A stretch of 64,000 bases of DNA from Eubacteriales bacterium (GTDB lineage Bacteria > Bacillota > Clostridia > Acetivibrionales > JANLFN01): assembly GCA_024655885.1 (NCBI GenBank), contig JANLFN010000003.1, positions 94,792 through 158,791 on the forward strand, read 5' to 3'. Under the pieces are notes generated by a model. That model was not told where the DNA came from, made no database searches, and worked only from the letters and a program-made list of their open reading frames with translations. Positions 23,948 to 60,487 of the stretch are shown in pieces (the first letter of the stretch is position 1; the number at the start of each line of letters is the position of its first letter). Made by a program: the position numbers and the translations under genes.

Positions 23948-25816
23948 ATGCTTGACAGTGTAAAAAGGTTTCTGATAGGAAGGCCTTTAAAAAATGAAGC
24001 ATTGAATGAAGAAAAATACGGCATATTGTGGGGTCTGCCCATTCTTGCCAGCGATGCCCTGTCGTCGGTTGCCTACGCAAGCGAGGAGATTCTGCTTGTA
24101 CTGGTACCGGCCATAGGAGTTCTGGCATACAGCAACCTGTTGTATATTTCCGCTGCCATCATAGCCCTGGTGGTAATACTGGCTTTTTCCTACAGGCAGA
24201 CCATACAGAACTACCCAAACGGAGGGGGAGCCTATATCGTCGCCAAGGAGAACATCGGGGTGGTAGCCGGAGTCACCGCAGGGGCCGCACTTTCAGTGGA
24301 CTACGTGCTGACGGTGGCCGTCAGTATATCTTCAGGCGTCGCACAGGTAACCTCCGCCTTCCCAGTCCTGATTCCTTACACGGTGCCCATCTGCATAGCC
24401 GTTGTGCTGCTTTTGATGATGGGGAATTTAAGAGGCATCAGGGAATCGTCAAAGATGTTCAGTATACCGGCCTATGCCTTTATTTTCGCCATACTGTCCA
24501 TGCTGGTGGTAGGCTTTATAAAAATCAAAAGCGGGTATGTCCCCCCTGAGCCCTCTTTGAAAACGGCTGTTGAACCGGTTAGCCTGGCACTGCTGCTGAC
24601 CGCGTTTTCCAACGGCTGTGCGGCGGTCACGGGAATAGAGGCGGTGAGCAATGCGGTCCCCAACTTCAAGGCGCCCTCCACAAAGCATGCAAAAACCGTC
24701 ATGCTGCTCCTGGCAGGATTGGTGATCATCCTTTTCGGAGGTACTTCCCTGCTGGCCAATACGTTCCATGTAGTACACAGTGAAGAAAAAACGGTGTTGA
24801 TCCAGATTGCCGAAGAAATATTTGGCAACGGATTTATGTTCTATTATATCATGGCCTCCACTTTTATAATCCTTGCAATGGCTGCCAACACTGCATTTTC
24901 AGGATTTCCCCTCCTTGTGTCCGTTATGGCGAAAGAGGGCTTTGCCCCCAGGCAGCTCAGCATGCGGGGGGACCGTTTAAGCTTTTCAAACGGAATCATC
25001 GCACTGTCGGTAATAGCCATCCTGCTCATTGTCGTATTTAATGCCAATGTCTCTTCCCTGATAGGACTGTACGCCATCGGCGTATTCATATCCTTTACAT
25101 TGTCCCAGTCGGGCATGTTTCTCCACTGGTGCAGGACCCGTGAAAAAGGCTGGGTGCACAAAGCCTTTATTAACGGGCTTGGTGCCCTGGTAACGGGCAT
25201 TGTTGTTGTGATTATCGCAGCCACAAAATTCCATGAGGGCGCATGGATTGTGGTGGTGGTGGTACCCATTTTAATTCTCATGATGTTAAAGATCAAAAAG
25301 CATTACACGGCGGTTTCAAAGCAGCTGCGGATATCGGCGGAGGAGCTCTCCGCCGTGGAAATTCAACATGACGCCTACAGGAACAGGGTTATCGTGCCCA
25401 TTGAAAGTGTAAACAGGGCGAGCATTCGGGCGTTAAAATATGCCAAGACCATTTCGGACAACGTGGTGGCCTTCAGTGTGTCCATAGACGAGGAACAGGC
25501 CCAAAAGATGAAGGATAAGTGGGGTTATCTGAACACTGACATCCCCCTCATAGTAAAATATTCCCCTTTCCGGAAGGTTGTGGACCCTTTGCTGAAGTTT
25601 ATAGAATCCGCCGAGTACGACTATAAAAAAGGAGACATGATCACGGTCATCCTCCCTCAATTTTCGGTCAGGTCCTGGTGGAACAAGATCCTCCACAACC
25701 AGACCACCCGCTATATAGAGCGCCAGCTTTTAAAGCACAAGCACATTGTGGTGTCGGTAATGCCTCTTCAGCTCAAAGAGGATGACTTTGTTTTAAAAAG
25801 CAAGAACTATTCATAG
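23948..25816 (+). CDS. APC-superfamily permease, KimA-like potassium importer
   Basis: 622 residues with about 12 membrane segments, then a cytoplasmic C-terminal domain from about residue 460. It strongly resembles B. subtilis KimA: opening KRFLIGRPLKNEALNEEK, SDALSSVAYASEEILLVL, SYRQTIQNYPNGGGAYIVAKENIG, VDYVLTVAVSISSGVAQVTSAFP. KimA is a high-affinity potassium:proton symporter inhibited by c-di-AMP. ATG 23948 follows AGAGGTAGAAAG at a somewhat long distance. The gene converges with the DUF3842 gene with a 10-base overlap of the 3' ends. Amino-acid transport is the alternative for this superfamily. Confidence 0.82.
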   Translation: MLDSVKRFLIGRPLKNEALNEEKYGILWGLPILASDALSSVAYASEEILLVLVPAIGVLAYSNLLYISAAIIALVVILAFSYRQTIQNYPNGGGAYIVAKENIGVVAGVTAGAALSVDYVLTVAVSISSGVAQVTSAFPVLIPYTVPICIAVVLLLMMGNLRGIRESSKMFSIPAYAFIFAILSMLVVGFIKIKSGYVPPEPSLKTAVEPVSLALLLTAFSNGCAAVTGIEAVSNAVPNFKAPSTKHAKTVMLLLAGLVIILFGGTSLLANTFHVVHSEEKTVLIQIAEEIFGNGFMFYYIMASTFIILAMAANTAFSGFPLLVSVMAKEGFAPRQLSMRGDRLSFSNGIIALSVIAILLIVVFNANVSSLIGLYAIGVFISFTLSQSGMFLHWCRTREKGWVHKAFINGLGALVTGIVVVIIAATKFHEGAWIVVVVVPILILMMLKIKKHYTAVSKQLRISAEELSAVEIQHDAYRNRVIVPIESVNRASIRALKYAKTISDNVVAFSVSIDEEQAQKMKDKWGYLNTDIPLIVKYSPFRKVVDPLLKFIESAEYDYKKGDMITVILPQFSVRSWWNKILHNQTTRYIERQLLKHKHIVVSVMPLQLKEDDFVLKSKNYS

Positions 25817-26244
25817 CCTGACTTTTTATCCATCTTCAGGCTTTTACCCACAGCTTCAACCGCACTGTCGATCAAATGGGGCAAGGGCTCGCTCTTATCC
25901 ACCCCTACAATTTCTATGTTGCACCGGTTCAGCGGTAAAAGCAGCTTTCTGGCAGGACTTTCGGATATTGCCTTCGCCATCAAGGTGGTCAGCTCCCCGC
26001 TCATGGAATTGGCGACCACCACGCTGATGGTGCCCATGATGACATCCACCTTATGGACATTATATACAATTGCGTTTTCGCCTGTAGCCGCTTCATTCGC
26101 CCCCGCCTTGATCATGGAAGACGTGGCGATGGCGTTTGTGCCCAGCGCAATAATTTCAACATCTTCAGGAAGCTCTCTCCTCAGCTTTTCCACAATGGCC
26201 CTGCCTATGCTGCCCCCCTGGCCGTCTATTACAGCGATCCTCAT
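25807..26244 (-). CDS. DUF3842 family protein, nucleotide-binding-like fold
   Basis: 145 residues of unknown function. ATG 26244 is chosen because AAGGAGGATTTGT precedes it; a longer in-frame reading runs into the structured leader. The opening MRIAVIDGQGGSIGRAIVEKL resembles a Rossmann GxGGxxG dinucleotide loop, followed by NAIATSSMIKAGANEAATGENA and MSGELTTLMAKAISES. A conserved-looking Cys lies in LPLNRCNIEIVGV. No membrane segment or signal is seen. It carries the same double-hairpin leader as the metal-acquisition genes at 43-57 kb, so it likely belongs to their regulon. Confidence 0.8.
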   Translation of the reverse strand: MRIAVIDGQGGSIGRAIVEKLRRELPEDVEIIALGTNAIATSSMIKAGANEAATGENAIVYNVHKVDVIMGTISVVVANSMSGELTTLMAKAISESPARKLLLPLNRCNIEIVGVDKSEPLPHLIDSAVEAVGKSLKMDKKSGYE

Positions 26245-26268
26245 ACAAATCCTCCTTAGACAATGAAA

Positions 26269-26438
26269 GGCCATGAAAACCGGTTTAACCGCTTCTGCGA
26301 TTAAATCAGCCTTCATGGCCAATCTCTTTTTTTTGAACTTCGATAATTAAAAAAAATACCGGACGGCAATCCCTACACAAGCAAGCCTTCATGGCTTAGA
26401 ATTGCAATCATTATACCACATTATGCCGGGCAAGTCCA
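26269..26438 (-). promoter_or_regulatory. Double-hairpin leader RNA, copy 1 (DUF3842 gene), with promoter
   Basis: Extended -10 TGGTATAAT (TATAAT at 26410-26415) with TGGACT as weak -35. Hairpin 1 at 26383-26397 is AAGCC-ATGAA-GGCTT. Hairpin 2 at 26306-26322 is TTGGCC-ATGAA-GGCTGA; its 5' arm can instead pair with TTTTCATGGCC ending near 26269, giving a long alternative stem. The U-tract after that stem is weak (TTTCATTG), so this copy may act by another route, for example on ribosome access. Same design as the leaders at 43, 44, 45 and 57 kb. Confidence 0.65.
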
Positions 26439-41825: not shown

Positions 41826-42422
41826 TCAAGCCCGCTTCTTCTGCCCGATAACCACAAACAGCCTCTCGTCGTCCACTTCAGCCACCGTGCTGAGACCCGC
41901 GCTGGAAAAATACCCCCGGAGGGTGCCCCCATCGGGCAGATAATCCCTTGAAACCGTCTCCGAGGCATTTTTGTGCATCTGATTGATTTCATCCCTGCTC
42001 TGGGAGTGGCAGATCACAAGCTTTCCGCCCGGCTTTGCAAATCCCCCCAGCTTTTCTACGGCTTCAAGCTTGGATCCAAAATGCGGAAATACCGAATAGC
42101 ACATGATCACATCAAAATATCCCATGGGCATGTCCAGATTAAAAACATCGCCTGCAACAAACTTCACATTGGCATAATCATGTTTCCTCTTGGCCATTTC
42201 AATCATTTTTTCGGCAAAATCCACGGCGGTAACCTGGCCGGCGATACCCACCCTGGAGACGAGGAAAGGTATGAGAATCCCGGTGCCGGTGCCCACATCC
42301 AGGACCCTGTCCCCCTTCCGGATATCCGCCAGGTCCAGTATCTCTCCTATTTTGTCCGGGTCATGGCGGCAAATGCTGTCCCACTTTTCCGCCATGGAGT
42401 TGAAAAATTCCCTATGATCCAC
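41826..42422 (-). CDS. Class I SAM-dependent methyltransferase linked to an ECF S component
   Basis: 198 residues. Opens HREFFNSMAEKWDSICRHDP, as in UbiE-type proteins. Motif I is VLDVGTGTGILIPFLVS near residue 39, followed by VTAVDFAEKMIEMAKRKH, and VIMCYSVFPHFGSKLEAVEKLGGFAKPGG. Overlaps the S component gene by 11 bases, so they are coupled. It is shorter than the three NLTWTLR-type copies. Substrate unknown. Confidence 0.83.
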   Translation of the reverse strand: MDHREFFNSMAEKWDSICRHDPDKIGEILDLADIRKGDRVLDVGTGTGILIPFLVSRVGIAGQVTAVDFAEKMIEMAKRKHDYANVKFVAGDVFNLDMPMGYFDVIMCYSVFPHFGSKLEAVEKLGGFAKPGGKLVICHSQSRDEINQMHKNASETVSRDYLPDGGTLRGYFSSAGLSTVAEVDDERLFVVIGQKKRA

Positions 42423-42954
42423 TGGACAACCCCTCTCTTTTAATCAGATTGTTCTTGCTCAGAATCAGAACTAAAGCGGGAATAAACAGGAGCTGGATGA
42501 TAATCCCCGGTATCCCCTGGACAATGCCTCCGGATATGAACACCAAGGGACCCGGGAGCTTTGCCATGAAAAAAGTAGCCATGACCCACACCACGAGGCC
42601 CGACACAATTCTGCCCGCCGCCATGCTCCCCACAAGGGAGACATATACGTTCAGCCTCAGTTTTCTGTACAGGAAACATGCGACCCCTCCATAGGCGGCC
42701 AGCTCAAATACCATATAGGGCAGAACGGGAAACATGGGGGGCATCCCCGTTAAGACAGAGCTTAAAATAGGGGTTGCCGCCCCCACGGCGACGGCGAAGG
42801 GCAGGCTCACCACAAAGCCCGCCAGCAATACCGGGATGTGCATGGGCAAAAAGGTGGACCCCAGGCCGAAGGCGTGGAAAATCATGGGCAGCAATAGCCC
42901 CATGGCAACAAGCAAGCCGGAAAGAACCACTTCTCTGACGGATTTACTTTTCAT
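42412..42954 (-). CDS. ECF transporter S component (substrate unknown)
   Basis: 180 residues with six hydrophobic segments and no ATPase. The N-terminal VREVVLSGLLVAMGLLLPMI is a typical S-component opening, MHIPVLLAGFVVSLPFAVAVGA is the family loop, followed by SVLTGMPPMFPVLPYMVFELAAYGGV. It stands apart from any T or A component; the nearest are cbiQ-cbiO (45.5-47.2 kb) and the ecfT-ecfA set (61-64 kb), either of which could serve it. First gene after leader copy 2 and overlapping a methyltransferase gene, so the substrate may be a metal chelate or a methylated cofactor. Confidence 0.8.
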   Translation of the reverse strand: MKSKSVREVVLSGLLVAMGLLLPMIFHAFGLGSTFLPMHIPVLLAGFVVSLPFAVAVGAATPILSSVLTGMPPMFPVLPYMVFELAAYGGVACFLYRKLRLNVYVSLVGSMAAGRIVSGLVVWVMATFFMAKLPGPLVFISGGIVQGIPGIIIQLLFIPALVLILSKNNLIKREGLSSGS

Positions 42955-43051
42955 AAAAATCCCCTTTCATTTATAAAATTATTTTGCTTATAAGGCGGCT
43001 GAAAATATAGCCCTTATGCGCTTTACTCTGGCCGCGGCCATTCAGGCGGCA

Positions 43052-43251
43052 ACAAAAAAACCACAAAAATTCTTCCATTCTTTTCGAGAACAAAGAACCT
43101 TCGTGGCTCAATTACTATCTTTAAATATGGCAACGGCTAACAAAAGCCAATATGGCATAAAAAATGTGAAAATGATTCGATAAAAACCCGAATCGGGCCT
43201 TCATAACCCAGATTACTAGAGATTATATATAAATTCCGGTCTCCATTTCTA
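43052..43251 (-). promoter_or_regulatory. Double-hairpin leader RNA, copy 2 (ECF S operon), with promoter
   Basis: Promoter TAGAAA (43246-43251) and TATAAT (43222-43227), spacer 18. Hairpin 1 at 43195-43209 is GGGTT-ATGAA-GGCCC. Hairpin 2 at 43095-43109 is GAGCC-ACGAA-GGTTC, and this segment is also the 5' arm of a terminator of about 15 bp whose 3' arm AAGAATTTTTGTGG is followed by TTTTTTTG. The two folds of the second element exclude each other. Confidence 0.75.
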
Positions 43252-43426: not shown

Positions 43427-44182
43427 CTATTTCACAACAATAAAAGAAAGAGTATAAGTAAACCGCGTATCCCTGCAAATCCCTTCCTCCCCTTGGGGAT
43501 GGGTATACCGGACAATAGCAAGATATTTCCCCGGCGTTTCCGCTTTGATCCTGACTACTCCATTTTCATCCGTATTTACGGCGCTCTGCGCCACCTCTTC
43601 TTCAAAGCCCTTTGAAAAAGCCACGTCCACCGGAGTATGGGACACCGGCCTGTTTTGAAAATACAGGCTGAATTCAATCTCATCCCCGGCCCGCCACTTT
43701 CTCCACTTTGCAGGCCGCAGGCACAGCGGGATTTCCGGCATCCTTGGAGCTTCCTCCTCCGGAATATCGTGGCCCACCGACACCATTACATGGGAGTACT
43801 GGATAAAAGCCGTAGCCTGGGAAGCGTCGGGATATTCCCTCAAGGTTCCGCGCAGGTGCTTTCCGCTGACATCCACCACATAGTATCCCCGGTTCTCGCA
43901 CACCACGTGGTACACCCCCTCGGTTTCGGGGAGAAAGCTTATAACATAGCCGTCCTGACTGCTTTCACCAACGGGCAGGTCCTCCCGCTTTCCGTCCGGC
44001 CCCACCACATAGGCCGACAGGCCCTCTTCCCTTACCGAGCCGTGGGGCTGCATATTGTGGCCCCAGTTGAAGCAGATATTCACATTTTCCCCTTTGTGGG
44101 CGTGGCTGAAAGACTTTTCAAGCCACCCTTCATGCCCGTATATCATAAAATCGGTTGTGTCCAAAAAAATCCTGTCCTTCAC
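43427..44182 (-). CDS. DUF4198-like protein, nickel/cobalt-uptake-associated type
   Basis: About 251 residues from GTG 44182, eight bases after GGAGG; ATG 44197 is the alternative. Opening FLDTTDFMIYGHEGWLEKSF and WGHNMQPHG carry several His, as in DUF4198 proteins, where His near the N-terminus is thought to bind metal. Two beta-rich domains follow; the second (PVSHTPVDVAFSKGFEEE; VNTDENGVVRIKAETPGKYLAIV) is an Ig-like domain common in the family. No signal peptide is visible, which is unusual since most members are exported. It stands alone behind leader copy 3. Confidence 0.68.
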   Translation of the reverse strand: MKDRIFLDTTDFMIYGHEGWLEKSFSHAHKGENVNICFNWGHNMQPHGSVREEGLSAYVVGPDGKREDLPVGESSQDGYVISFLPETEGVYHVVCENRGYYVVDVSGKHLRGTLREYPDASQATAFIQYSHVMVSVGHDIPEEEAPRMPEIPLCLRPAKWRKWRAGDEIEFSLYFQNRPVSHTPVDVAFSKGFEEEVAQSAVNTDENGVVRIKAETPGKYLAIVRYTHPQGEEGICRDTRFTYTLSFIVVK

Positions 44183-44254
44183 TCTTCCATCCTCCATTCT
44201 GTTTTTAATGCGCCTGCTTCCTGGCCTTGGAGGCAAACCTTATCCTCCTCTTCC

Positions 44255-44437
44255 AAAACAAAAAAGGCCACAAAGATTTTACTCCTTTTTGAAATAAAAA
44301 CCTCCGTGGCTTCCATTAAAGATACTTCTTTTTCGAAACACTCTCATGCCGTTCAATACTTTCTGAAGCTTCAAAACCTGCGTGAGCCTTCATGACTCAT
44401 TTTAAACTATTGTACGTCCTATCAGAAAAAATGTCTA
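44255..44437 (-). promoter_or_regulatory. Double-hairpin leader RNA, copy 3 (DUF4198-like gene), with promoter
   Basis: Promoter TAGACA (44432-44437), 17 bases, TACAAT (44409-44414). Hairpin 1 at 44383-44399 is TGAGTC-ATGAA-GGCTCA. Hairpin 2 near 44296-44314 is AAGCC-ACGGA-GGTTT and overlaps the 5' arm of a terminator whose 3' arm AAAATCTTTGTGGCC (44266-44280) is followed by TTTTTTGTTTT. Roughly 70 bases separate the two hairpins. Confidence 0.75.
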
Positions 44438-44876: not shown

Positions 44877-45074
44877 TTACGCCCGGATCCTCTCAATAAC
44901 GATGCGGTGGTCCACCAGTGCCATCTCTTTTATTTTCGCATTGATATACTTTTTCTCGTAAAAGATGTTCTCCAAGCACAGCTGGTCCCCTTCAGGCAGA
45001 ATCTTATCCACCGCCTCCAGAAAAAGTATTTCGTTCCCGTCTTCATCCAATAAATACACATTGGCTTCACACAT
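44877..45074 (-). CDS. cooT: CooT-like nickel-binding protein
   Basis: 65 residues, starting MCEANVYLLDEDGNEILFLE with the conserved Cys2 and Glu3. In Rhodospirillum rubrum CooT is a dimeric nickel-binding protein for carbon monoxide dehydrogenase maturation, with Cys2 as key ligand; the Pfam family (PF10133) was earlier called a predicted RNA-binding protein. The pattern LLDEDGNE and VLENIFYEKKYINAKI-like core (here LCLENIFYEKKYINAKI) agree with small beta-barrel members. ATG 45074 follows AAGAGGTGACGAAAA. Behind leader copy 4, about 210 bases downstream of its terminator. Confidence 0.85.
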   Translation of the reverse strand: MCEANVYLLDEDGNEILFLEAVDKILPEGDQLCLENIFYEKKYINAKIKEMALVDHRIVIERIRA

Positions 45075-45285
45075 TTTTCGTCACCTCTTACTTTTAGAAA
45101 TACCGTTTCCCTTGTCCTTTTCTTAAATCACGGCACCTGCTCCCGGCCTTCCCGCACCATCTCATCCTGTTGCCTCCCCTTTGGAAATGTCCGCAGGCCT
45201 TACAGTTTTAAAAATCCTGTGGAAAAGGGGAGCATTCATATAAAAGCCAATACCCGGGCATGAAAAAACCGATTCCGTCAAAAAA

Positions 45286-45447
45286 CAAAAAAGCTACAAA
45301 AATTTTTATTCTTCCTGAGATTAAAAACCTTCGTGGCTTTTCATTCAAAAGATTCAATTTTCCAGGCAATATCCCGCTGCCCTCAAATCTCCCTGCCTGT
45401 CCACAACCCTTATATAAAATTATATGACATCTTTGCACACATGTCTA
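45286..45447 (-). promoter_or_regulatory. Double-hairpin-type leader RNA, copy 4 (cooT operon), with promoter
   Basis: Promoter TAGACA (45442-45447), 17 bases, TATAAT (45419-45424). The second element is clear: AAAAGCC-ACGAA-GGTTTTT (45323-45341), also the 5' arm of a terminator with 3' arm AAAAATTTTTGTAGC and a T-run (to 45286). The standard first hairpin is not evident; instead CAGGCA (45394-45399) can pair with TGCCTG (45363-45368). It is the most divergent copy. Confidence 0.65.
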
Positions 45448-48451: not shown

Positions 48452-48528
48452 ATCCATATCCGTATAAACAGATTTTGCACATTCAAATCACCCTCCATCT
48501 CTCGTAGAGTTACTGGCATTGAATAACA

Positions 48529-48704
48529 GGCAGGTCTTCTGGCTAAAGCATCCTCACCCTCCTTGCCTTCCCGGCTTACCAGTGGCACTCGTCGGAGGAC
48601 TCCTCTATTACAGCGGCGGGACCGCGCGGGATTTTCACCCGACTTCCCTTTTCACCAGTTATGATTCTATCCGTCCGCATCATAACTGACACCTGTTTCA
48701 AATG
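48529..48704 (-). ncRNA. Cobalamin (AdoCbl-type) riboswitch
   Basis: On the mRNA strand the characteristic blocks occur in order: ACAGGTG near the 5' end, GGTGAAAATCCCGCGCGG with CCCGCCGCTGTAA, AGTCCTCCGACGAGTGCCACTGG, and finally AGCCAGAAGACCTGCC at 48529-48544. These are the conserved cobalamin-riboswitch elements, including the B12 box GCCACTG. It precedes cbiMNQO and should shut off cobalt uptake when cobalamin is plentiful. Confidence 0.95.
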
Positions 48705-48718
48705 TTTAGTTTTTCTAT

Positions 48719-48881: not shown

Positions 48882-49673
48882 TTACCGTGAAAGCTGTGAT
48901 TGAGCCGATTCTTTTTGATAGGGTAAAGAAAGCTTCTCCATGTCGGCAAGTATTGTGTCAATATCCTTTTGACAATCATCCAGTTTTTTAAGGAGAAGTT
49001 CAAGAAGTCGGCATTCACTTCTTGTGAGCTTTCCACAAACAGCAGATTCAATTTCATCTAGTGGCCTTTTTATCCTGCGACCAACTGCACTTAACACATC
49101 CGAAGAGGTAATGCAGCCTTTTTCCACAAGAGTATTAAGCAAATTGCGTCCGCTTAATCCCATAATATTGCTTAAAACAGAAGAAAGCTTAAAGCCATGT
49201 GTTTGGAGGAATTTCTCAAGCCTATTTAAATCCCTGGACCTCTCCTGCACAAACGATTTATGTAACCTTGAATATTCCCTTAAATTGCGGATCTCTCTGT
49301 CAGGAATAAAGCTTGCTGTTAACAAGCCGTGCCTTAGTAAAGTTGCAATCCACTCTGCGTCTTTAACGTCCTTCTTCCTTCCGGGAAGATTGCGCATGTG
49401 ATGAGCATTAACAACGAGTAATTGCTCATAATCCTTCAAATGTTCCTCAATGGCTTCATATACTGGTATCCAATAGACACCTGTGCTTTCCATAGCGATA
49501 TTTGAGCAGCCATTCCCATAAAGCCAGTTAACAAAATCAATTAAGCCTGACTGTGTGGTTTTAAATTGCTCACGAATCGTATTTGGCTTTTTGCCTTTGC
49601 CCTTTAAAATACATACCTCAATCATGTCTCTATGAACATCTACTCCGCAGCAACAATTTAAAAGGGCTTGCAT
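48882..49673 (-). pseudogene. IS110-family transposase, C-terminally truncated
   Basis: 263 residues against about 400 in full-length members. The N-terminal DEDD RuvC-like domain is present (CCGVDVHRDMIEVCIL, AMESTGVYWIPVYEAI, KKDVKDAEWIATLLRHGLL), but reading stops after EKLSLPYQKESAQ, before the Transposase_20 domain that carries the catalytic Ser. No continuation is seen in other frames of 48722-48881. The element is therefore probably inactive and marks a rearrangement between cbiMNQO and Opp module A. Confidence 0.85.
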
Positions 49674-49880: not shown

Positions 49881-49926
49881 TGGTTGTTCTTCTGTCTGGT
49901 TTAACCAGACAGAAGAACCGTCCCCT
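49881..49926. repeat. Long palindromic repeat (GTTCTTCTGTCTGG type), copy 1
   Basis: GTTCTTCTGTCTGG-TTTAA-CCAGACAGAAGAAC followed by CGTCCCC. The same palindrome occurs at 60429-60487 with longer arms. This type is dispersed in many Clostridia genomes. Here it separates the IS110 remnant from a methyltransferase gene and could also stop transcription. Confidence 0.8.
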
Positions 49927-49955: not shown

Positions 49956-50702
49956 CTACTTCTCCGCTACAACCAGGAACATGGGGGTGGACCTGTAAAG
50001 GATCCTGTCCTCTTCATCCTGAACCCTGTCGGTGATGTCCGCATTGATAAAGATCTCCTTAAAGCCCACCTCCAGGAGGGCCCCCGCATCCCAGTGAGGG
50101 CGCAGGCGGGTGCTTAAAAACAGCTCTTTGGCGATTCGGTCCCCTTCTTCCGGGTTCACATGGCCCAGGCGGTGAATTCCCCGCCTCTCGGCTTCCGCTT
50201 TGTCCTCTTCATATTTTTTCCGCATCTCCGGGTCATTCAGGTGCAGGTTCCAGTTGGCGTCGAAAATCAGCAGTCTCCCGCCGGGCTTTAAAACCCGGCG
50301 CCACTCCGCATAGGCGGCCTGGGGGTCATGGAGGGTCCATGTCAGATTCCGGCACAGCAGCAGGTCAAAGGAGTCATCCTCAAAGGTGAGGAGGTGGGAG
50401 TCCATCTTGAGAAATTTCGCCGTCAGCCCCACCGTCCTCATGTTGTTCTGCGCTTCGGCCAGCATGTTGCTGCTGCAGTCGACGGCGGTCACCCTATGGC
50501 CCATCTCGGCCAAAACCATGGCGAAAAAGCCGGGGCCTGTGCCTATATCCAGCACCTCCAGGGGGTTGCCCGCAGGTCTGTGCTCGTCGATCAGGTTCGC
50601 CCAGGCCTGCTTTTTAAAGCTGTTCATCTCCTTCCAGATGCCTTCGCTGTAGCGGGAAGCCTCTCCTTCCCAATAGTTCTCAATCCTTGTCTGCATTTCC
50701 AT
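49956..50702 (-). CDS. Class I SAM-dependent methyltransferase, metal-transporter-linked family, copy 2
   Basis: 248 residues from ATG 50702 (AAGGAGAGGATCGCT upstream); the frame extends upstream without family character. Motif I VLDIGTGPGFFAMVLAEMGH near residue 49, acidic TAVDCSSNMLAEAQNNM, then LLLCRNLTWTLHDPQAAYAEW and LLIFDANWNLHLNDPEM. C-terminal HWDAGALLEVGFKEIF and ILYRSTPMFLVVAEK match copies at 29968 and 54485. Last gene of module A, about 120 bases after the binding-protein gene. Confidence 0.86.
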   Translation of the reverse strand: MEMQTRIENYWEGEASRYSEGIWKEMNSFKKQAWANLIDEHRPAGNPLEVLDIGTGPGFFAMVLAEMGHRVTAVDCSSNMLAEAQNNMRTVGLTAKFLKMDSHLLTFEDDSFDLLLCRNLTWTLHDPQAAYAEWRRVLKPGGRLLIFDANWNLHLNDPEMRKKYEEDKAEAERRGIHRLGHVNPEEGDRIAKELFLSTRLRPHWDAGALLEVGFKEIFINADITDRVQDEEDRILYRSTPMFLVVAEK

Positions 50703-50823
50703 AGCGATCCTCTCCTTTTTATTCAACCTCAAATTTTTTCCACGGGAAGCCGAGATGGGACAAAACTCCGGCTGTTCCCCGTCTGCGGTTTTGATAAAAA
50801 ATTCAACCCCGCTTGCAGGGCGG

Positions 50824-52467
50824 TCACTTGACATCCAGTTCTTCCCATTTCACAGGGGAATAGGAGTTGGTGCCGAAGGCGAACCCGCTCACCTTTTTGT
50901 TGAACACAAAAATCTCATCAGGGTAATAGAGGGGTGCACACACCGCCTTCTGATACATCAGGGCGAATATTTCGTCGTACTTTTTCTGTCTTTCGTTCTC
51001 ATCCATGAGGGGCATCACCTGGTCGATGAGCTTTTCCAGTTCCGAATCCGACCAGGCCACCGCCGCCCCGTCTTTAGTCTTATGGAAAAGGCCCATGAGG
51101 AAGCCGTGAGGGTTCCAGGAATCCGAATAGGTGCGGTAGATAATCAGGTCATACTGCCTGTTTGTCCAGAGGGCATCATAGTATGCGTTGGATTCCAGCA
51201 TTTGCAGGTTCAGCTTGATCCCTATTTCCTGCAGCTGGGCCTGGGTAAACTCGCACATGGTTTTCCACTCGGGGTATTCCTGGTTCTGGAGCACCAGGTT
51301 CAGCTCCAGGGGCTTGCCGTCTTTCTCCAAAATTCCGTCGCCGTTGGTATCCTTATAGCCCGCCTTTTCCAGCAGGTCTTTGGCTTGGGCCTGATCATAC
51401 TCGTACCACTGGTTGTTGGCCTCGGTCACATAGGGGACGGTAAACTGGAAAAGCCCCTGGGCCGGCTTTCCCACTCCGCCCAGCAGGTTGTCCACCATGC
51501 TCTTTTTGTTCAGGGCCAGGTTGATGGCCTTGCGCACATGGATATCCTGCAGCAGCGGATTCTGGTAGTTAAAGACCAGAAAATAGGATGTGGTGCTGGA
51601 GGTGCTCTCCATTTTAAGGGTGTCGCTGTTTTTAATGGTGGGAATACTCTCCAGGGGGATCTTGCCCATGGTTCCCCCCGAGAAGTCCACCTCTCCGCTC
51701 TTTAAGGCCATCACCCTGGACTGGGGGTCAGGAATGACCTTCAGCACAATTTTGGAAAGGTTGGGCTTTTTGCTCCAATAGTTGGGGTTGGGCACCAGCA
51801 CGGCCTGCTGGTCCTTGGTATAGCTTTCCACCATCCAGGCTCCCGTACCGATGGGCTTGACAAACTTGCCCTTCACGTCTCCCTTGGGTTCCACCGCCGA
51901 CGGGCTGATGATGCGGACAGGCCGGGGGTAGGTGAGCTCTGAGAGAAAAGGATAGTAGGCCTTGTCAAAGGTGAGCTTAAGGGTGTACGGGTCCACCGCC
52001 TCCACCGACTTTAACGCATTTGAAACGTTTAATGAGGAGTTGGCCGGGTCCCCATACCACCTCTCCATGGAAAACTTGGCCGCTTCGGCGTTGAAGTCGG
52101 TGCCGTCCGAAAATTTGACGCCCTTGCGCAGGTGAAAGGTATATACCTTGCCGTCTTCCGAAATGTCCCAGGATTCGGCGAGGGAGGGCAGGATTTCCCC
52201 TTTTTCCCCGTATTCCACCAGCCCGTCGTAAATCATGGGGTAGGCCTGGATCAGGCCTTTATAAGAGGCAGCGTCCAGCTGGTCGACGCCCACGTCGGTG
52301 GAAACCGCCACCACCAGCTGTTTGTCATTGGCGCTCTGCCCGGTCCCAGGCTGTTGGGTGTCCGAGGCCGTTCCGCTGCACCCTGCCGTAAAAGCAGCCA
52401 GCAAAAGGAAAATCAAAGCCACAGCCCTCTTTTGCTCCTTAAAAATTTTTTTGACAAAAGAATTCAT
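50824..52467 (-). CDS. Extracellular solute-binding lipoprotein, family 5 (OppA/NikA-like), module A
   Basis: 547 residues. Signal peptide with lipobox FTAGCSG near residue 30. SBP_bac_5 marks: ESWDISEDGKVYTFHLRKG and KFSDGTDFNAEAAKFSMERW, then IGTGAWMVESYTKDQQAVLV and DNLLGGVGKPAQGLF. The N-terminal VAVSTDVGVDQLDAASYKGL resembles NikA-type nickel-binding proteins more than peptide OppA, but the ligand cannot be proven. Overlaps the OppC gene as ATGA. Confidence 0.87.
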   Translation of the reverse strand: MNSFVKKIFKEQKRAVALIFLLLAAFTAGCSGTASDTQQPGTGQSANDKQLVVAVSTDVGVDQLDAASYKGLIQAYPMIYDGLVEYGEKGEILPSLAESWDISEDGKVYTFHLRKGVKFSDGTDFNAEAAKFSMERWYGDPANSSLNVSNALKSVEAVDPYTLKLTFDKAYYPFLSELTYPRPVRIISPSAVEPKGDVKGKFVKPIGTGAWMVESYTKDQQAVLVPNPNYWSKKPNLSKIVLKVIPDPQSRVMALKSGEVDFSGGTMGKIPLESIPTIKNSDTLKMESTSSTTSYFLVFNYQNPLLQDIHVRKAINLALNKKSMVDNLLGGVGKPAQGLFQFTVPYVTEANNQWYEYDQAQAKDLLEKAGYKDTNGDGILEKDGKPLELNLVLQNQEYPEWKTMCEFTQAQLQEIGIKLNLQMLESNAYYDALWTNRQYDLIIYRTYSDSWNPHGFLMGLFHKTKDGAAVAWSDSELEKLIDQVMPLMDENERQKKYDEIFALMYQKAVCAPLYYPDEIFVFNKKVSGFAFGTNSYSPVKWEELDVK

Positions 52468-53375
52468 GTTTTTTTCTCCTCTCCTATTTTAAAGAATGAT
52501 ATTTTAAGCAGTGGGCGTTTTGCCCGCAGGCCCCCTCCCTCCTGTTTTCCCTGTCCTCCTGTTCCGGGGCTGCTGATGGCCTTCTGCAACCCCTCTCCCA
52601 CAAAGTTGAAGGCCATCACCGCCAGCATGATGGTGAGCCCGGGAAAAAGCATGAGGTGGGGTGCCGTTTCGATGTAAGGCTTGCTGTCGCTGAGCATGGC
52701 GCCCCATTCGGGGGTCGGGGGCTGGGCTCCCAGGCCCAAAAAGGACAGGCCGGAAATGGCCAGGATGATAGAGCCGATTTCCAGGGTAGCCAGCACCAGG
52801 ATGGGCGATACGGCATTGAGGAGGATGTGCCGGAAGACCACCTTGAGGTGGGAATCACCGCAGGCTTTTGCCGCCAGCGTAAAATCTTTTTCTTTGATTT
52901 GCAGCACCATTCCCCGTATAATTCTGGCAAAACTGATCCACCAGACCGCCGCAAGGGCAAGCAGCATATGGATGAGTCCCGGCCCCATGAGGCCGGTGAT
53001 GGCCAGGGCCAGAATCATGCTGGGAAAGGCCAGCAGGATGTCGATGATGCGCATAATCCAGTTGTCCACTCTGCCCCCCACATATCCCGCTATGGTTCCG
53101 ATGGGGATGCTGATGGCCAGGATCATTCCCAGGACCAGTACGGCGTCCAGAAGGGAAGTCCTGGTGCCGTAAAGGAGACGGGACAGAATGCACCGTCCCA
53201 GCTGGTCGGTCCCCAGGGGATGGGCTGAAGATGGGGGCATCAGCTTGTGCTCCAGGTCCACCTTCAAGGGGTCCGCCGGTGCGATATAGGGCGCCAGCAG
53301 GCTGGCGGCAAAAAAAGCCAGGATGACGACCAGTCCCGCCACTGCCTGCTTTTGCCGGAAAAATTTTTTAGCCAT
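52464..53375 (-). CDS. Opp/Nik-type permease (OppC/NikC-like), module A
   Basis: About 303 residues from ATG 53375, nine bases after AAGGAGG; the ATG three codons earlier sits too close to the same site. Features: LGTDQLGRCILSRLLYGTRTSL, the EAA-like loop AAKACGDSHLKVVFRHILLN, and GLSFLGLGAQPPTPEWGAML. The C-terminal tail GGQGKQEGGGLRAKRP is long, polar and unusual for the family. Confidence 0.86.
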   Translation of the reverse strand: MAKKFFRQKQAVAGLVVILAFFAASLLAPYIAPADPLKVDLEHKLMPPSSAHPLGTDQLGRCILSRLLYGTRTSLLDAVLVLGMILAISIPIGTIAGYVGGRVDNWIMRIIDILLAFPSMILALAITGLMGPGLIHMLLALAAVWWISFARIIRGMVLQIKEKDFTLAAKACGDSHLKVVFRHILLNAVSPILVLATLEIGSIILAISGLSFLGLGAQPPTPEWGAMLSDSKPYIETAPHLMLFPGLTIMLAVMAFNFVGEGLQKAISSPGTGGQGKQEGGGLRAKRPLLKISFFKIGEEKKT

Positions 53376-53390
53376 GGCACCCATCCTCCT

Positions 53391-54329
53391 TTAACTCAGC
53401 CTGATGCGGGGATCCAGAAAGACATAGCATAGGTCCACCAGCAGATTGACCAGAACAAAAATCACCGCCATAAGCAGCACATACCCCTGGATGACCGTGT
53501 AATCCTTCAGGAAAATGGCATCCACCGCATATTTCCCGATGCCCGGCCAGGAAAAGATGGTTTCCACAATAAAGGAGCCGCTCAGCAGTCCCCCGAAATT
53601 CATCCCCAAAAGGGTAACCGCCGGAAGAAGGGCGTTTTTCAGCGCATGCCGCGCAATGACCAGCCTTTCCCGGAGTCCCTTAGCCCTGGCCGTATTGATG
53701 AAATCCTTTTGCAGCACTTCCAGCATGCTGGTCTTAAGCAGCCGGATGTAGGGGGCCGCCAGGCCAAAGCCCAGGGTAAAGGCGGGCAGCACCAGGTGCT
53801 TGATCCCCCCCATGCCCACCACCGGGAATAGCTTTAACCGCACGGCCAGAGCATAGATCAGGAGCAGCCCCAGCCAGAAGCCGGGCATGGAGGAGCCCAG
53901 CAGGGCGCATACCCGGCTGATGTGGTCTATGGGCGAGCCGGGATAGATCGCCGCAAAGATGCCCAGGGGCAGCGCAATGACGGCCGTGAATGCCAGAGCG
54001 CACAGCGCCAGCCTCAAGGTGGCCGGAAAGCGCAGCAGCAGCTCCTGGGCCACAGGCAGTCCCGAGTTGAAGGACTGGCCGAGATCCAGGTGGATCACCT
54101 TCCACAGCCAGCGGATATACTGGCGGTATACCGGACCCTCCAGGCCCAGCTTTTGGCGCATGGCTTCCACGGCTTCAGAGGTGGGCTGCACCCCCGAAGC
54201 CCTGATGGCAATTTCCGCCGGATCTCCGGGAGTCAGGTTGATCAGGGCAAAAGTGACCACCGAAACCCCCAGCAAAACCGGGATCAAAGCCAGCAGGCGT
54301 TTTAACAGAAACCGTTTTATCTCACTCAC
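53391..54329 (-). CDS. Opp/Nik-type permease (OppB/NikB-like), module A
   Basis: 312 residues. FALINLTPGDPAEIAIRA near the N-terminus, the EAA-like loop TARAKGLRERLVIARHALKN, and ETIFSWPGIGKYAVDAIFLKDYT at the C-terminus match NikB/DppB. Six membrane helices. Situated between methyltransferase copy 3 and OppC; 155 bases separate it from the methyltransferase stop. Confidence 0.87.
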   Translation of the reverse strand: MSEIKRFLLKRLLALIPVLLGVSVVTFALINLTPGDPAEIAIRASGVQPTSEAVEAMRQKLGLEGPVYRQYIRWLWKVIHLDLGQSFNSGLPVAQELLLRFPATLRLALCALAFTAVIALPLGIFAAIYPGSPIDHISRVCALLGSSMPGFWLGLLLIYALAVRLKLFPVVGMGGIKHLVLPAFTLGFGLAAPYIRLLKTSMLEVLQKDFINTARAKGLRERLVIARHALKNALLPAVTLLGMNFGGLLSGSFIVETIFSWPGIGKYAVDAIFLKDYTVIQGYVLLMAVIFVLVNLLVDLCYVFLDPRIRLS

Positions 54330-54484
54330 CTTCTTTCCTTTTTTTCACATCCCCGGTTCCATGCCGGGGGAAAGCTGGGATAAAACAAAATTCCGGCAAT
54401 ACCCCTTCTGCTCTATCAGCACGGGATAGGAGCCTGTTTCCGCCGCTTTTCCGCCGTGAAGCACCACCGGATTATCCGCCCCCT

Positions 54485-55234
54485 CTATTTTTCCACGGCC
54501 AGCATAAACATGGGCCTTGACCTGTACTTCAGCCTTTCGGCCTCATCCCACACCCGTGCGCCGATATCCACATTGCAGTAAATTTTTTTGAAGCCGGTGC
54601 GGATGAGCGCATCAAAATCCCATTGAGGGCGCAATCGGCTGTTCATGGGCATGGACCGCCGAAAATCGTCCATCTTTTCCCCATGCTTGTCCAGGCGGGC
54701 CTTTTCTCCATACTTTTCCATATAGGCACGTTCATCCTCTTCAAACTTCCGCCTGTACTCCTCGTCGAAGAAGCGCAGATTCCAGTTGGCATCGAAGATG
54801 AGGATTCTTCCGTCGGGGCGCAGGACGCGCTTCCATTCCCTGTACGCAGCTTCCGCATCCCGCAGGGTCCACGTCACGTTGCGGCTGACAATCAGATCAA
54901 AGCTCTCCTCTTCAAAGTTCAGGCTGTGGCTGTCCATGACATGAAAGGTGGGCTGGACCCCGGAACGCCGTGCGTTTTCCCGGGCATAAGCGATCATTTC
55001 CCCGGTGCAGTCCACCGCTGTGACATTGTGACCCGCAAGGGTTAAAATAATTGCAAAAAATCCGGGGCCCGTACCCACGTCGAGGATATCCAGTTTTTCC
55101 TTGGGAGGTGCGCTCTCCAGGATCAGTTCGGCCCATGCCTTTTTTTTGAAGCTGTCCAGCTCCTTTTGCACAATGTGGCTGTAGTTTTCCGCCGAGTCGG
55201 CCCAATTGTTTTCAACAAGTTCCTGTAAATCCAT
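54485..55234 (-). CDS. Class I SAM-dependent methyltransferase, metal-transporter-linked family, copy 3
   Basis: 249 residues. Motif I LDILDVGTGPGFFAIILTLAGH near residue 47, acidic TAVDCTGEMIAYARENA, then VSRNVTWTLRDAEAAYREWKR and RILIFDANWNLRFFDEEY. The C-terminal block RLRPQWDFDALIRTGFKKIY and LKYRSRPMFMLAVEK matches copies 1 and 2. It sits between the ATPase and permease genes of module A, so this module has two methyltransferases. Closest relatives by eye are the other two copies in the window, which suggests duplication within the island. Confidence 0.86.
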   Translation of the reverse strand: MDLQELVENNWADSAENYSHIVQKELDSFKKKAWAELILESAPPKEKLDILDVGTGPGFFAIILTLAGHNVTAVDCTGEMIAYARENARRSGVQPTFHVMDSHSLNFEEESFDLIVSRNVTWTLRDAEAAYREWKRVLRPDGRILIFDANWNLRFFDEEYRRKFEEDERAYMEKYGEKARLDKHGEKMDDFRRSMPMNSRLRPQWDFDALIRTGFKKIYCNVDIGARVWDEAERLKYRSRPMFMLAVEK

Positions 55235-55270
55235 CTTGTATCCCCCCTACCTCGTATAAAAAAATTAATT

Positions 55271-56284
55271 CTATGCTGACTGTCCAGCCGACGGATCCGG
55301 TCCCTGCAGCCGGCATCCTTTCCCTTGCATTCCTCTAAAAAGGTGGCAGGCCACCTGATGGTGGTCATCCACAAACTTCAACGCCGGCTTCGCCGTTTTG
55401 CACACAGGCTCTGCGTACAGGCACCGGTTGTTGAAAAGACATCCGTCGGATGCTGTTCCGCGCTCCAGTTCTCCTTTGAGCAACACTTTTTTTTCTCTGC
55501 GCTTTCTGGGGTCGGTGGTTAAAGCTGCGGAAAGCAGGGCCACCGTATAAGGATGGCGCGCCTTGCCGCTCTCCACCGCCTCGCGGGGGATAACCTCCAC
55601 AATGCTACCCATATACATGACGGCAATTCGGTCGCACATGCGCTTCACCGCCGACAGGTCATGGGATATGAACAGGTAGGTCAGCCCCAACTGGCTTTTC
55701 AGGTTTCCCAGCAGCCGCAGCACCTGTCCCCGGATGGTAAAATCCAGGCTGGACACCGGCTCGTCACACACCACGAACTCCGGATTCAGCACCAGCGCCC
55801 TGGCAATGCCCACCCGCTGGCGCTGCCCTCCGCTGAGCTGGGACGGGTACCGGAAGGCATATTCCTCGTCCAGCCCCACCTTTTCAAGCACCTGGACCAC
55901 CTGTTCCCTGTAGGCCGTCCTGGACATCTTTTTGTAATTGGCCAGCGGCTCGGTGATAATCTGTTCCACCGTAAAATGGGGATTGAAGGAGCTGCCGCTG
56001 TTTTGAAAGATGATTTGAATATCCTTCCGGAGCCTGCGCATATGGCCGTATCTGTAGCCGGTAATATCCTCCCCTTTGAAAAGCACCTGGCCTGAAGTGA
56101 TTTTCTCCAACCGGAGGATCATCCTGCTCAGGGTGCTTTTCCCGCAGCCGCTTTCGCCCACCAGTCCCAGAGTTTCACCCTTCAGGATGGTCAGATTTAC
56201 ATCTGAAACCGCATATATCCTGTGGGACGCAGGGCTGTCCTCGTTATAGCACTTTGATAAGCCTATGGTTTCAATCAGTTTCAT
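55271..56284 (-). CDS. Opp/Nik-type ABC transporter ATPase (OppF/NikE-like), module A
   Basis: 337 residues. Walker [10 protein letters not shown] near 44, signature LSGGQRQRVGIARALV near 150, Walker B FVVCDEPVSSLDFT. The C-terminal extension has DGCLFNNRCLYAEPVCKTAKP and YKVACHLF-type end (actual HHQVACHLF), the Cys cluster seen also in module C. Precedes the methyltransferase by 36 bases. Confidence 0.86.
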   Translation of the reverse strand: MKLIETIGLSKCYNEDSPASHRIYAVSDVNLTILKGETLGLVGESGCGKSTLSRMILRLEKITSGQVLFKGEDITGYRYGHMRRLRKDIQIIFQNSGSSFNPHFTVEQIITEPLANYKKMSRTAYREQVVQVLEKVGLDEEYAFRYPSQLSGGQRQRVGIARALVLNPEFVVCDEPVSSLDFTIRGQVLRLLGNLKSQLGLTYLFISHDLSAVKRMCDRIAVMYMGSIVEVIPREAVESGKARHPYTVALLSAALTTDPRKRREKKVLLKGELERGTASDGCLFNNRCLYAEPVCKTAKPALKFVDDHHQVACHLFRGMQGKGCRLQGPDPSAGQSA

Positions 56285-56313: not shown

Positions 56314-57105
56314 TCAGGAAATTGAACCCAGGAGCTCTTTTGTGTAGCTATGGCGCGGATTTTCAAAGATACCATATACGCTGCCCTTTTCTACGATCTT
56401 TCCGGCCTTCATCACGTATACGTCATCCGCCATTTCCGCCACAACCCCCAGGTCATGGGTGATGAGGAGCACACCCATGCCTGACTCCTTCTTAAGCCGG
56501 TTCAGTTCCTCCAGTATTTCCGCCTGTATGGTCAGATCAAGGGCGGTGGTGGGTTCATCCGCAATCAGCACCGACGGATTGGACGCCATGGCTATGGCGA
56601 TCATTACCCTCTGGCACATTCCGCCGCTGAGCTGGAAGGTATAGCTTTTCATGATCTTTTCAGGGCGATCCAGACCCACTTTTTGAAGCAGCCGGAGGCT
56701 GCGTTCCCGCGCCTCTTCCCCGGATACCTTCTCGTGGGCCAGTATGGCTTCCGATAACTGCCATCCGATTTTCATCACCGGATTCAACGCGGCGTACGGG
56801 TCCTGGAACACCATGGATATTTCCCTGCCGCGGACTCCCCGCATTTCCTCCCTGCTACACTTGCGGATATCCCGGCCCTTCAGCAGCACCTGCCCTGAAA
56901 CAATCTTTCCGGGCCTTTCAATCAGGCCCAACACCGAAAGGGAAGTTATGGATTTTCCGCAGCCGCTTTCACCCACCAAAGCCGTTATCCTGCCCTTATA
57001 TACGTCAATATCCACTCCGTCCACCGCTTTGACTGCCACATTCCCACGGCTGTCATAAAAATAGGTCCGCAGATCCCTAATGCTCAATACCGCTTGATCT
57101 TCCAC
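56314..57105 (-). CDS. Opp/Nik-type ABC transporter ATPase (OppD/NikD-like, short), module A
   Basis: About 263 residues from GTG 57105, six bases after GGAGGG; the frame upstream runs through the leader terminator and is not translated. Walker [10 protein letters not shown] near 45, signature [16 protein letters not shown] near 160, Walker [15 protein letters not shown]. It lacks the Cys-bearing C-terminus of its partner. First gene of module A, immediately behind leader copy 5. Confidence 0.86.
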
Positions 57106-57125
57106 CCTTTTCCCTCCTGGTATCA

Positions 57126-57310
57126 AAAACAAAAAGCCACGAAGTTTAAAATAATCGCGTTTGCGGCTTATCTTAACCTCCGTGGCTAAACTATCTAGAG
57201 TATGAACTTTTTAAACCTGAACTGCGTGATTGTATCCCAACAGACCCATCTTAGCCTTCGAAGCTAAATTGTAATGAGTGTATTATAATATAAGTTTTTG
57301 GTGTTGTAAA
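57126..57310 (-). promoter_or_regulatory. Double-hairpin leader RNA, copy 5 (Opp module A), with promoter
   Basis: Promoter TTTACA (57305-57310), 17 bases, TATAAT (57282-57287). Hairpin 1 at 57251-57267 is TTAGCT-TCGAA-GGCTAA. Hairpin 2 at 57173-57189 is TTAGCC-ACGGA-GGTTAA; the same strand forms the 5' arm of a terminator whose 3' arm TTTAAACTTCGTGGC is followed by TTTTTGTTTTTG. The first gene begins about 20 bases after the T-run. This is the cleanest copy. Confidence 0.78.
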
Positions 57311-57335: not shown

Positions 57336-57827
57336 TTATTCTTCATTTTTTTCGGAGTGGTTTTCTTTAAACTCTTGAAGTCTTCTCATAACGTCGGGAT
57401 TCCTGTCAAGAAACTCGTTTAAGAGTTCAATATTTTTAAGGGTATTCACGCTGATGCTGTGCTCCACCAGTTCGGTTTCCTCCAGAATGTTTTCGCTGAC
57501 ACCGATGGCTTTAAAAAATTTTTCAATGATATTGTGCCTGTTCAAAAGGAATCTGCCCAACGCTTTTCCGTTTTCGGTCAAAAAAATAATCCCGTATTTT
57601 TTGTAATCCAAAAGTCCCAGGTCTGTGAGCTTCTGAACCATCTTTGTGGCAGAGGAAGGCTTGACGTTCAGCAGCTCGGACAGGATATTTATCCTCATAT
57701 AGCCATCTTCCATAATATTTCTGTAAATCATCTCCAGATAATCCTCCATGGCCGAAGTCAGCGCATTCTTATTCTGGCTGAGGATCTGGTATCCCCGTAC
57801 CGTATGAAATGTTTCACCGTCATGCAT
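57336..57827 (-). CDS. DtxR/MntR-family metal-dependent transcriptional regulator
   Basis: About 163 residues from ATG 57827. Winged helix: AMEDYLEMIYRNI, then INILSELLNVKPSSATKMVQKLTDLGLLDY near residues 46-75, with a wing YKKYGIIFLTENGKAL. The dimerisation/metal domain follows: RFLLNRHNIIEKFFKAIGVSENILEETELVEHSIS, where His and Glu ligands are in the expected places. No C-terminal SH3-like domain, as in MntR. Divergent from feoAB, which it may control with Fe or Mn; it lies just upstream of the leader copy 5 promoter on the same strand. Confidence 0.85.
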   Translation of the reverse strand: MHDGETFHTVRGYQILSQNKNALTSAMEDYLEMIYRNIMEDGYMRINILSELLNVKPSSATKMVQKLTDLGLLDYKKYGIIFLTENGKALGRFLLNRHNIIEKFFKAIGVSENILEETELVEHSISVNTLKNIELLNEFLDRNPDVMRRLQEFKENHSEKNEE

Positions 57828-57996
57828 GTCTACCACTACCTCACTTGCGGAAAAAATTCTACTCTAATTTAAATTATATTCGTAGCACTCTCATTATATA
57901 TTTCATATATTGTATTAGTCCCGGGAAAAACTATTTCTTTCCTCTTTAAAGGGATAAATAAAGCATAGACGTAACAATGGCAGGAGGTCTAATTCT

Positions 57997-60428: not shown

Positions 60429-60487
60429 GACAAGGGGGACGGTTCTTCTGTCTGGTTTAACCAGACAGAAGAACCGTCCCCCTTGTC
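60429..60487. repeat. Long palindromic repeat (GTTCTTCTGTCTGG type), copy 2
   Basis: GACAAGGGGGACGG, then GTTCTTCTGTCTGG and exact complements, making a stem of about 27 bp with a TTTAA centre. Same core as 49881-49926. It sits between the convergent feoB and ECF S genes and may terminate both. Confidence 0.85.

Follow-up and report, generated by a model that had tools for sequence, protein, structure and literature searches.

The leader ahead of the Opp-methyltransferase operon raises two questions: whether it is a complete transcription attenuator, and if so what signal and what factor would work it. It lies on the minus strand (57310-57125) of the window, by which we mean the whole 64,000-nucleotide stretch analysed here, and is referred to as copy 5. 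A sequence-only reading had claimed for it a promoter, a first hairpin, a 60-base linker, a second hairpin and a strong terminator with T-run, followed after some 20 bases by the first gene, and each of these elements was found on the minus strand. The promoter (TTTACA-17-TATAAT, 57282-57310) agrees with the consensus at 11 of 12 positions and is the top promoter match of the region, from which we infer a transcript start near 57275. Hairpin 1 (TTTAGCU[UCGAA]GGCTAAG, 57250-57268) has the loop UCGAA against a family consensus of ANGRA, and its stem covaries across the family. The linker (57191-57249) measures 59 nt and differs in sequence between copies. Hairpin 2 (TTTAGCC[ACGGA]GGTTAAG, 57172-57190), with the loop ACGGA, is the putative antiterminator and overlaps the 5' arm of an intrinsic terminator (AGCCACGGAGG..CTTCGTGGC, 57125-57188, T-run 57135-57125), which is matched by model R1, a covariance model built on hairpin 2 and the terminator. 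The terminator (AGCCACGGAGG...CTTCGTGGCTTTTTGTTTTT) has its last base at 57125 and contains hairpin 2 in its 5' arm. The shared hairpin pattern TTTAGCNNCGNAGGYTAAGAT has two matches in the window, where 0.05 are expected by chance, and these are hairpins 1 and 2 of copy 5.

Promoter, leader and terminator thus stand before the first gene together with a competing upstream structure, the arrangement of a transcription attenuator. The folding energy of the leader is -44.1 kcal/mol, lower than the -32.1 +/- 3.6 of shuffles (z -3.3). Its terminator stem, at about -25.7 kcal/mol, is much more stable than hairpin 2 alone (about -4.9), and the switch would therefore need help to stay open. A leader peptide was considered and rejected: an ATG followed by 12 codons lies past hairpin 1 (MGLLGYNHAVQV), and by eye it has no equivalent in the copies c26, c43 and c44 described below.

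The operon behind the leader is of nickel type. Its first gene, a NikD/OppD-type ATPase (56314-57105, minus strand), has its best start at GTG 57105, behind AGGAGGGA (57118-57111) and 19 nt past the T-run, the longest open reading frame call being TTG 57132 inside the T-run itself. The remainder (49956-56284, minus strand) encodes an ATPase, a methyltransferase, Opp2B and Opp2C permeases, a NikA-type binding protein and a second methyltransferase; the two methyltransferases, inside the operon or at its end, are related to each other. The NCBIfam cut-offs for nickel transport are passed by NikA (402 vs 393 bits), Opp2B (420 vs 350) and Opp2C (308 vs 300). With these genes downstream, a terminator overlapping hairpin 2 and membership of a conserved family, the proposal of a complete attenuator for a metal-related Opp-methyltransferase operon is well supported in silico.

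The genome has seven copies, copy 5 included, every one ahead of nickel- or metal-type genes. Four more lie in the window, all on the minus strand. The copy c26 (26260-26398; hairpin 1 26382-26398, hairpin 2 26303-26325, then a terminator) precedes a gene for a DUF3842 protein (PF12953, family match E 1.4e-56; 25807-26244, minus strand), a candidate for the trans-acting factor. The copy c43 (43050-43210) precedes an ECF S component (42412-42954) and a methyltransferase (41826-42422), and c44 (44257-44399) precedes a DUF4198 protein (43427-44236). In c45 (45283-45343) there is hairpin 2 with a terminator and no clear hairpin 1; it precedes cooT (44877-45074, minus strand), whose product, of the nickel-binding accessory protein family CooT (PF10133), is thereby a regulon member. 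Model R1 adds the remaining two, at C36:64800 before an FmdE-type gene and at C25:19693 before a long CbiM/NikM. The genome also has a second DUF3842-cooT pair (L128, G000 C62:428544-429216), with no motif copy detectable upstream.

Across copies only the hairpin loops are conserved (ANGRA or NGAA, 4-5 nt), and the linker ranges from 4 to 98 nt, a combination that points to a loop-reading factor rather than a compact aptamer. Almost all of the 45 aligned copies have hairpin 2 as CC-ANGRA-GG. An (A)NGRA-loop hairpin 1 is present in 35/52 copies where dinucleotide shuffles predict 1.0, under strict rules by which some genuine cases, c43 and c57 for example, are missed. Among aligned pentaloop hairpins, the first loop base is A in 28/30 and the closing pair C-G in 25/30. 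In the hairpin-1 stem (30 sequences) standard pairs fill 99.4% of cells, a percentage raised by the choice of sequences for forming a stem; stronger evidence comes from the variety of pair types, with all six pairs covarying and two-sided changes in 64 cells, vs 15.2 in shuffles and no more than 16 with the partners slid. At the terminator apex the same loop motif recurs in 24/44 copies, compared with 1.3% of shuffles, and the apical hairpin of the copy-5 terminator is without it. Copy 5, which had been suggested as the best single copy for testing termination and antitermination, is complete without being the most typical, since its hairpin-1 loop is UCGAA and is closed by U-G; the copies at 26398 (c26) and 44399 (c44) are closer to the consensus.

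These figures leave little room for the idea that copy 5 is an ordinary unregulated promoter and terminator with an incidental likeness between its loops. Symmetrical terminators can indeed score weakly with the model, as in the genomes G359 and G404; the excess of hairpin 1, the strong covariation and the recurrence of the motif ahead of one set of nickel genes across many families nevertheless make the idea barely credible. The weak matches in G154, G359 and G404 were themselves read as chance symmetrical terminators, that in G154 being marginal and 34 nt long.

The RNA family is widespread in anaerobic Firmicutes and apparently undescribed. Matches were found in 18/60 relatives with R1, in 35/291 genomes of the class with R2 and in 56/299 of the phylum with R3; counted as motif genomes, the figures are 34+8/291 for the class (the 8 being added by lax filters) and about 54/299 for the phylum. 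Named carriers include Heliorestis acidaminivorans, Mobilitalea sibirica, Desulfotomaculum copahuensis, Bacillus marasmi and Paenibacillus sp. J2TS4. Our literature search returned no description of the RNA family or of a DUF3842 function, and none of the papers covered names DUF3842 at all; subscription papers fell mostly outside that search, and a published description is possible. The targets that recur across families, named in relatives from translated sequences by eye and mostly without a library scan, are NikA-type SBP/ABC genes, CbiM/NikM, FmdE with ABC genes, ECF S components, methyltransferases, CooT and LarE; DUF4198 is a target as well. LarE belongs to the nickel-pincer cofactor pathway. 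With CooT, LarE, CbiM/NikM and FmdE among the targets, and NikA, Opp2B and Opp2C above their cut-offs, we regard this as a nickel regulon, and the motif may serve as a regulatory tag by which further genes (ECF-S with methyltransferase, FmdE with ABC, Opp-methyltransferase) can be recognised as nickel-related. Two observations stand beside this list. At L024 of genome G026 (1501-1562) hairpin 2 and a terminator, without clear hairpin 1, precede an rnfC-like gene, a possible non-transport target. Genome G403 (L287-L288) has 11 model matches, eight of them within about 35 kb of Opp and other genes, and some are near-identical repeats.

The metal link that had been claimed for copy 5 is upheld with a correction: nickel is the most likely metal, and the sensor is probably a trans-acting protein, with DUF3842 as candidate, rather than an aptamer in the linker. 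A riboswitch, in which the leader would bind nickel or some other ligand with no protein involved, would suit the metal-type regulon and the terminator-type expression platform, and metal riboswitches provide the precedent. The NiCo (czcD) riboswitch is a nickel/cobalt leader RNA of Firmicutes that acts at a terminator, and its class has a compact aptamer and is known mostly from efflux genes. The nickel motif differs in preceding uptake genes and in having no conserved aptamer in the leader; conservation confined to hairpin loops, around a linker of such variable length, fits a compact aptamer poorly. When the window was searched with the Rfam covariance models, the cobalamin riboswitch alone passed, outside the leader, NiCo and all other families being unmatched, and a relaxed Rfam search of the copy-5 leader returned a single match, due to chance. 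Tight co-occurrence with a protein family, shown below, would also be unexpected of a riboswitch, and we consider one unlikely here. The cobalamin riboswitch (48512-48711, minus strand, 104 bits) precedes the window's cbiMNQO and adjoins nickel-type motif copies; because cbiMNQO follows this riboswitch instead of the motif, cobalt and nickel genes seem to be kept apart.

The closest known logic is that of the ANTAR leaders (eut of Enterococcus faecalis, nasF, amiE; PMC3369931), which likewise have tandem small hairpins with near-identical loops, the second exclusive with an intrinsic terminator, and for which, as here, a trans-acting protein is expected. The genome encodes three ANTAR proteins, any one of which might run copy 5. 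The two systems differ, however, in loop, linker length and regulon, which is nickel-type here. The loops of ANTAR-target RNAs are hexanucleotides whose first base is A and whose fourth is G, and in the eut RNA the linker is 5-12 nt, with 14 nt impairing function (PMC3369931), as against loops of 4-5 nt (NGAA/ANGRA) and a 59-nt linker in copy 5. Among the 291 class genomes ANTAR proteins occur in 21/35 with the motif, leaving 14 without, vs 124/256 others, which is no association (p 0.21). ANTAR proteins were ruled out as the factor on loop, linker and co-occurrence, and an ANTAR-type system appears highly improbable. A CsrA/RsmA site (GGA in the loop, ANGGA) was rejected likewise, the loops being mostly GAA and not GGA.

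The protein that does track the motif is DUF3842. In the class sample (291 genomes) it occurs in 34/35 motif genomes, the exception being G154, vs 62/256 others (p 1e-17), and in the nearly separate phylum sample in 51/56 vs 82/243 (p 9e-16), p-values that ignore the relatedness of the genomes. Within the four mixed families, where both states are present, the association holds with a combined chance of about 2e-4. Of the five phylum exceptions, G359 and G404 are like chance terminators, while G337, G554 and G607 have credible copies in draft assemblies, and a search of these three for DUF3842 down to E 10 found none. Lax filters add a motif match in 8/40 DUF3842-positive and 0/39 DUF3842-negative genomes, the weak match of G154 aside; no motif was found with model R3 in 32 of the 40 positive genomes tested, and DUF3842 may therefore have another role. 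Linkage points the same way as co-occurrence. The motif immediately precedes the gene in the window and at L223, L215, L161 and L210, with a degenerate form in G197, and thus in at least five lineages; the gene adjoins motif-bearing ECF-S operons in 5/20 neighbourhoods, and in a sixth it immediately precedes cooT and an SBP operon headed by the motif. On these two lines, DUF3842 is the leading candidate, and most probably the factor of the switch.

The same co-occurrence would also arise were DUF3842 merely a nickel-handling protein, co-regulated with the rest, and the attenuator worked by some other protein or by a small RNA. DUF3842 belongs to the regulon itself and frequently sits beside cooT, three motif genomes are without it, and many DUF3842 genomes are without the motif, all of which would be natural on such an account. 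It is a possibility to be taken seriously, if a distinctly less probable one, because the co-occurrence of DUF3842 is far tighter than that of the regulon member CooT, found in 8/35 motif genomes of the same 291 (a weak association, p 0.02), and because in many cases DUF3842 appears to be transcribed from a promoter of its own that lacks the motif, which could suit a regulator. CooT, a nickel-binding homodimer, was tried as the factor and rejected, being absent from 27/35 motif genomes. The structure model of DUF3842 (pLDDT 85.7) is Rossmann-like with no evident RNA-binding surface; a fold search with it gave no PDB match with E <1e-3 and is therefore silent on function. DUF3842 has no solved relative and no recognisable RNA-binding one.

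Anatomy, conservation, hairpin-1 covariation, nickel-type targets and DUF3842 co-occurrence were all computed for copy 5 and its family, and from them we think it probable that copy 5 is the attenuator of a nickel-uptake operon, belongs to a widespread RNA family, has DUF3842 as its RNA-binding factor and is active at low nickel. Nickel as the signal, and operation at low rather than high nickel, are suggested by the fact that the targets are uptake genes. RNA starting near 57275 would fold first into hairpins 1 and 2, presenting near-identical ANGRA loops, which DUF3842, perhaps as an oligomer, would grip when nickel is scarce. With hairpin 2 held, the 5' arm of the terminator would be sequestered and RNA polymerase would read into the operon, hairpin 1 acting as an anchor for the bound factor near the 5' end. 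On release with nickel, hairpin 2 would be left unheld, the more stable terminator would form and transcription would stop at about 57125. The loops at the terminator apex could offer DUF3842 a second, opposite handle.

Anaerobic Firmicutes need nickel for CODH/ACS, hydrogenases and lactate racemase, and an RNA switch before nickel genes together with one strongly co-occurring protein makes the control of nickel uptake in these organisms directly testable; the association also gives DUF3842 a candidate function. NikR, by contrast with the nickel motif, is a DNA-binding repressor of the NikABCDE and NikMNQO uptake genes. Since a comparative study found it in less than half of the organisms that bear NikABCDE, NikR-independent regulation has been predicted (PMC2667541), and the motif RNA is a candidate to fill that gap. 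More broadly, we would put at about even the prospect that DUF3842 founds a new class of nickel-responsive, Rossmann-like RNA-binding antitermination proteins, acting on arrays of (A)NGRA-loop hairpins and running nickel uptake in much of the Firmicutes.

The surroundings of copy 5 have features of their own. Directly upstream is a gene for an MntR-like DtxR-family regulator (57336-57836, minus strand), divergent from feoB, which may add metal control at the DNA level. An IS110-type transposase gene (48882-49673, minus strand) separates the cobalt cluster from the Opp cluster. Downstream of feoB is a perfect 29-nt palindrome; a near-identical copy of 40 nt lies 10.5 kb from it (60429-60487, 49886-49925), and the pair looks like a dispersed palindromic (REP/MITE-like) repeat.
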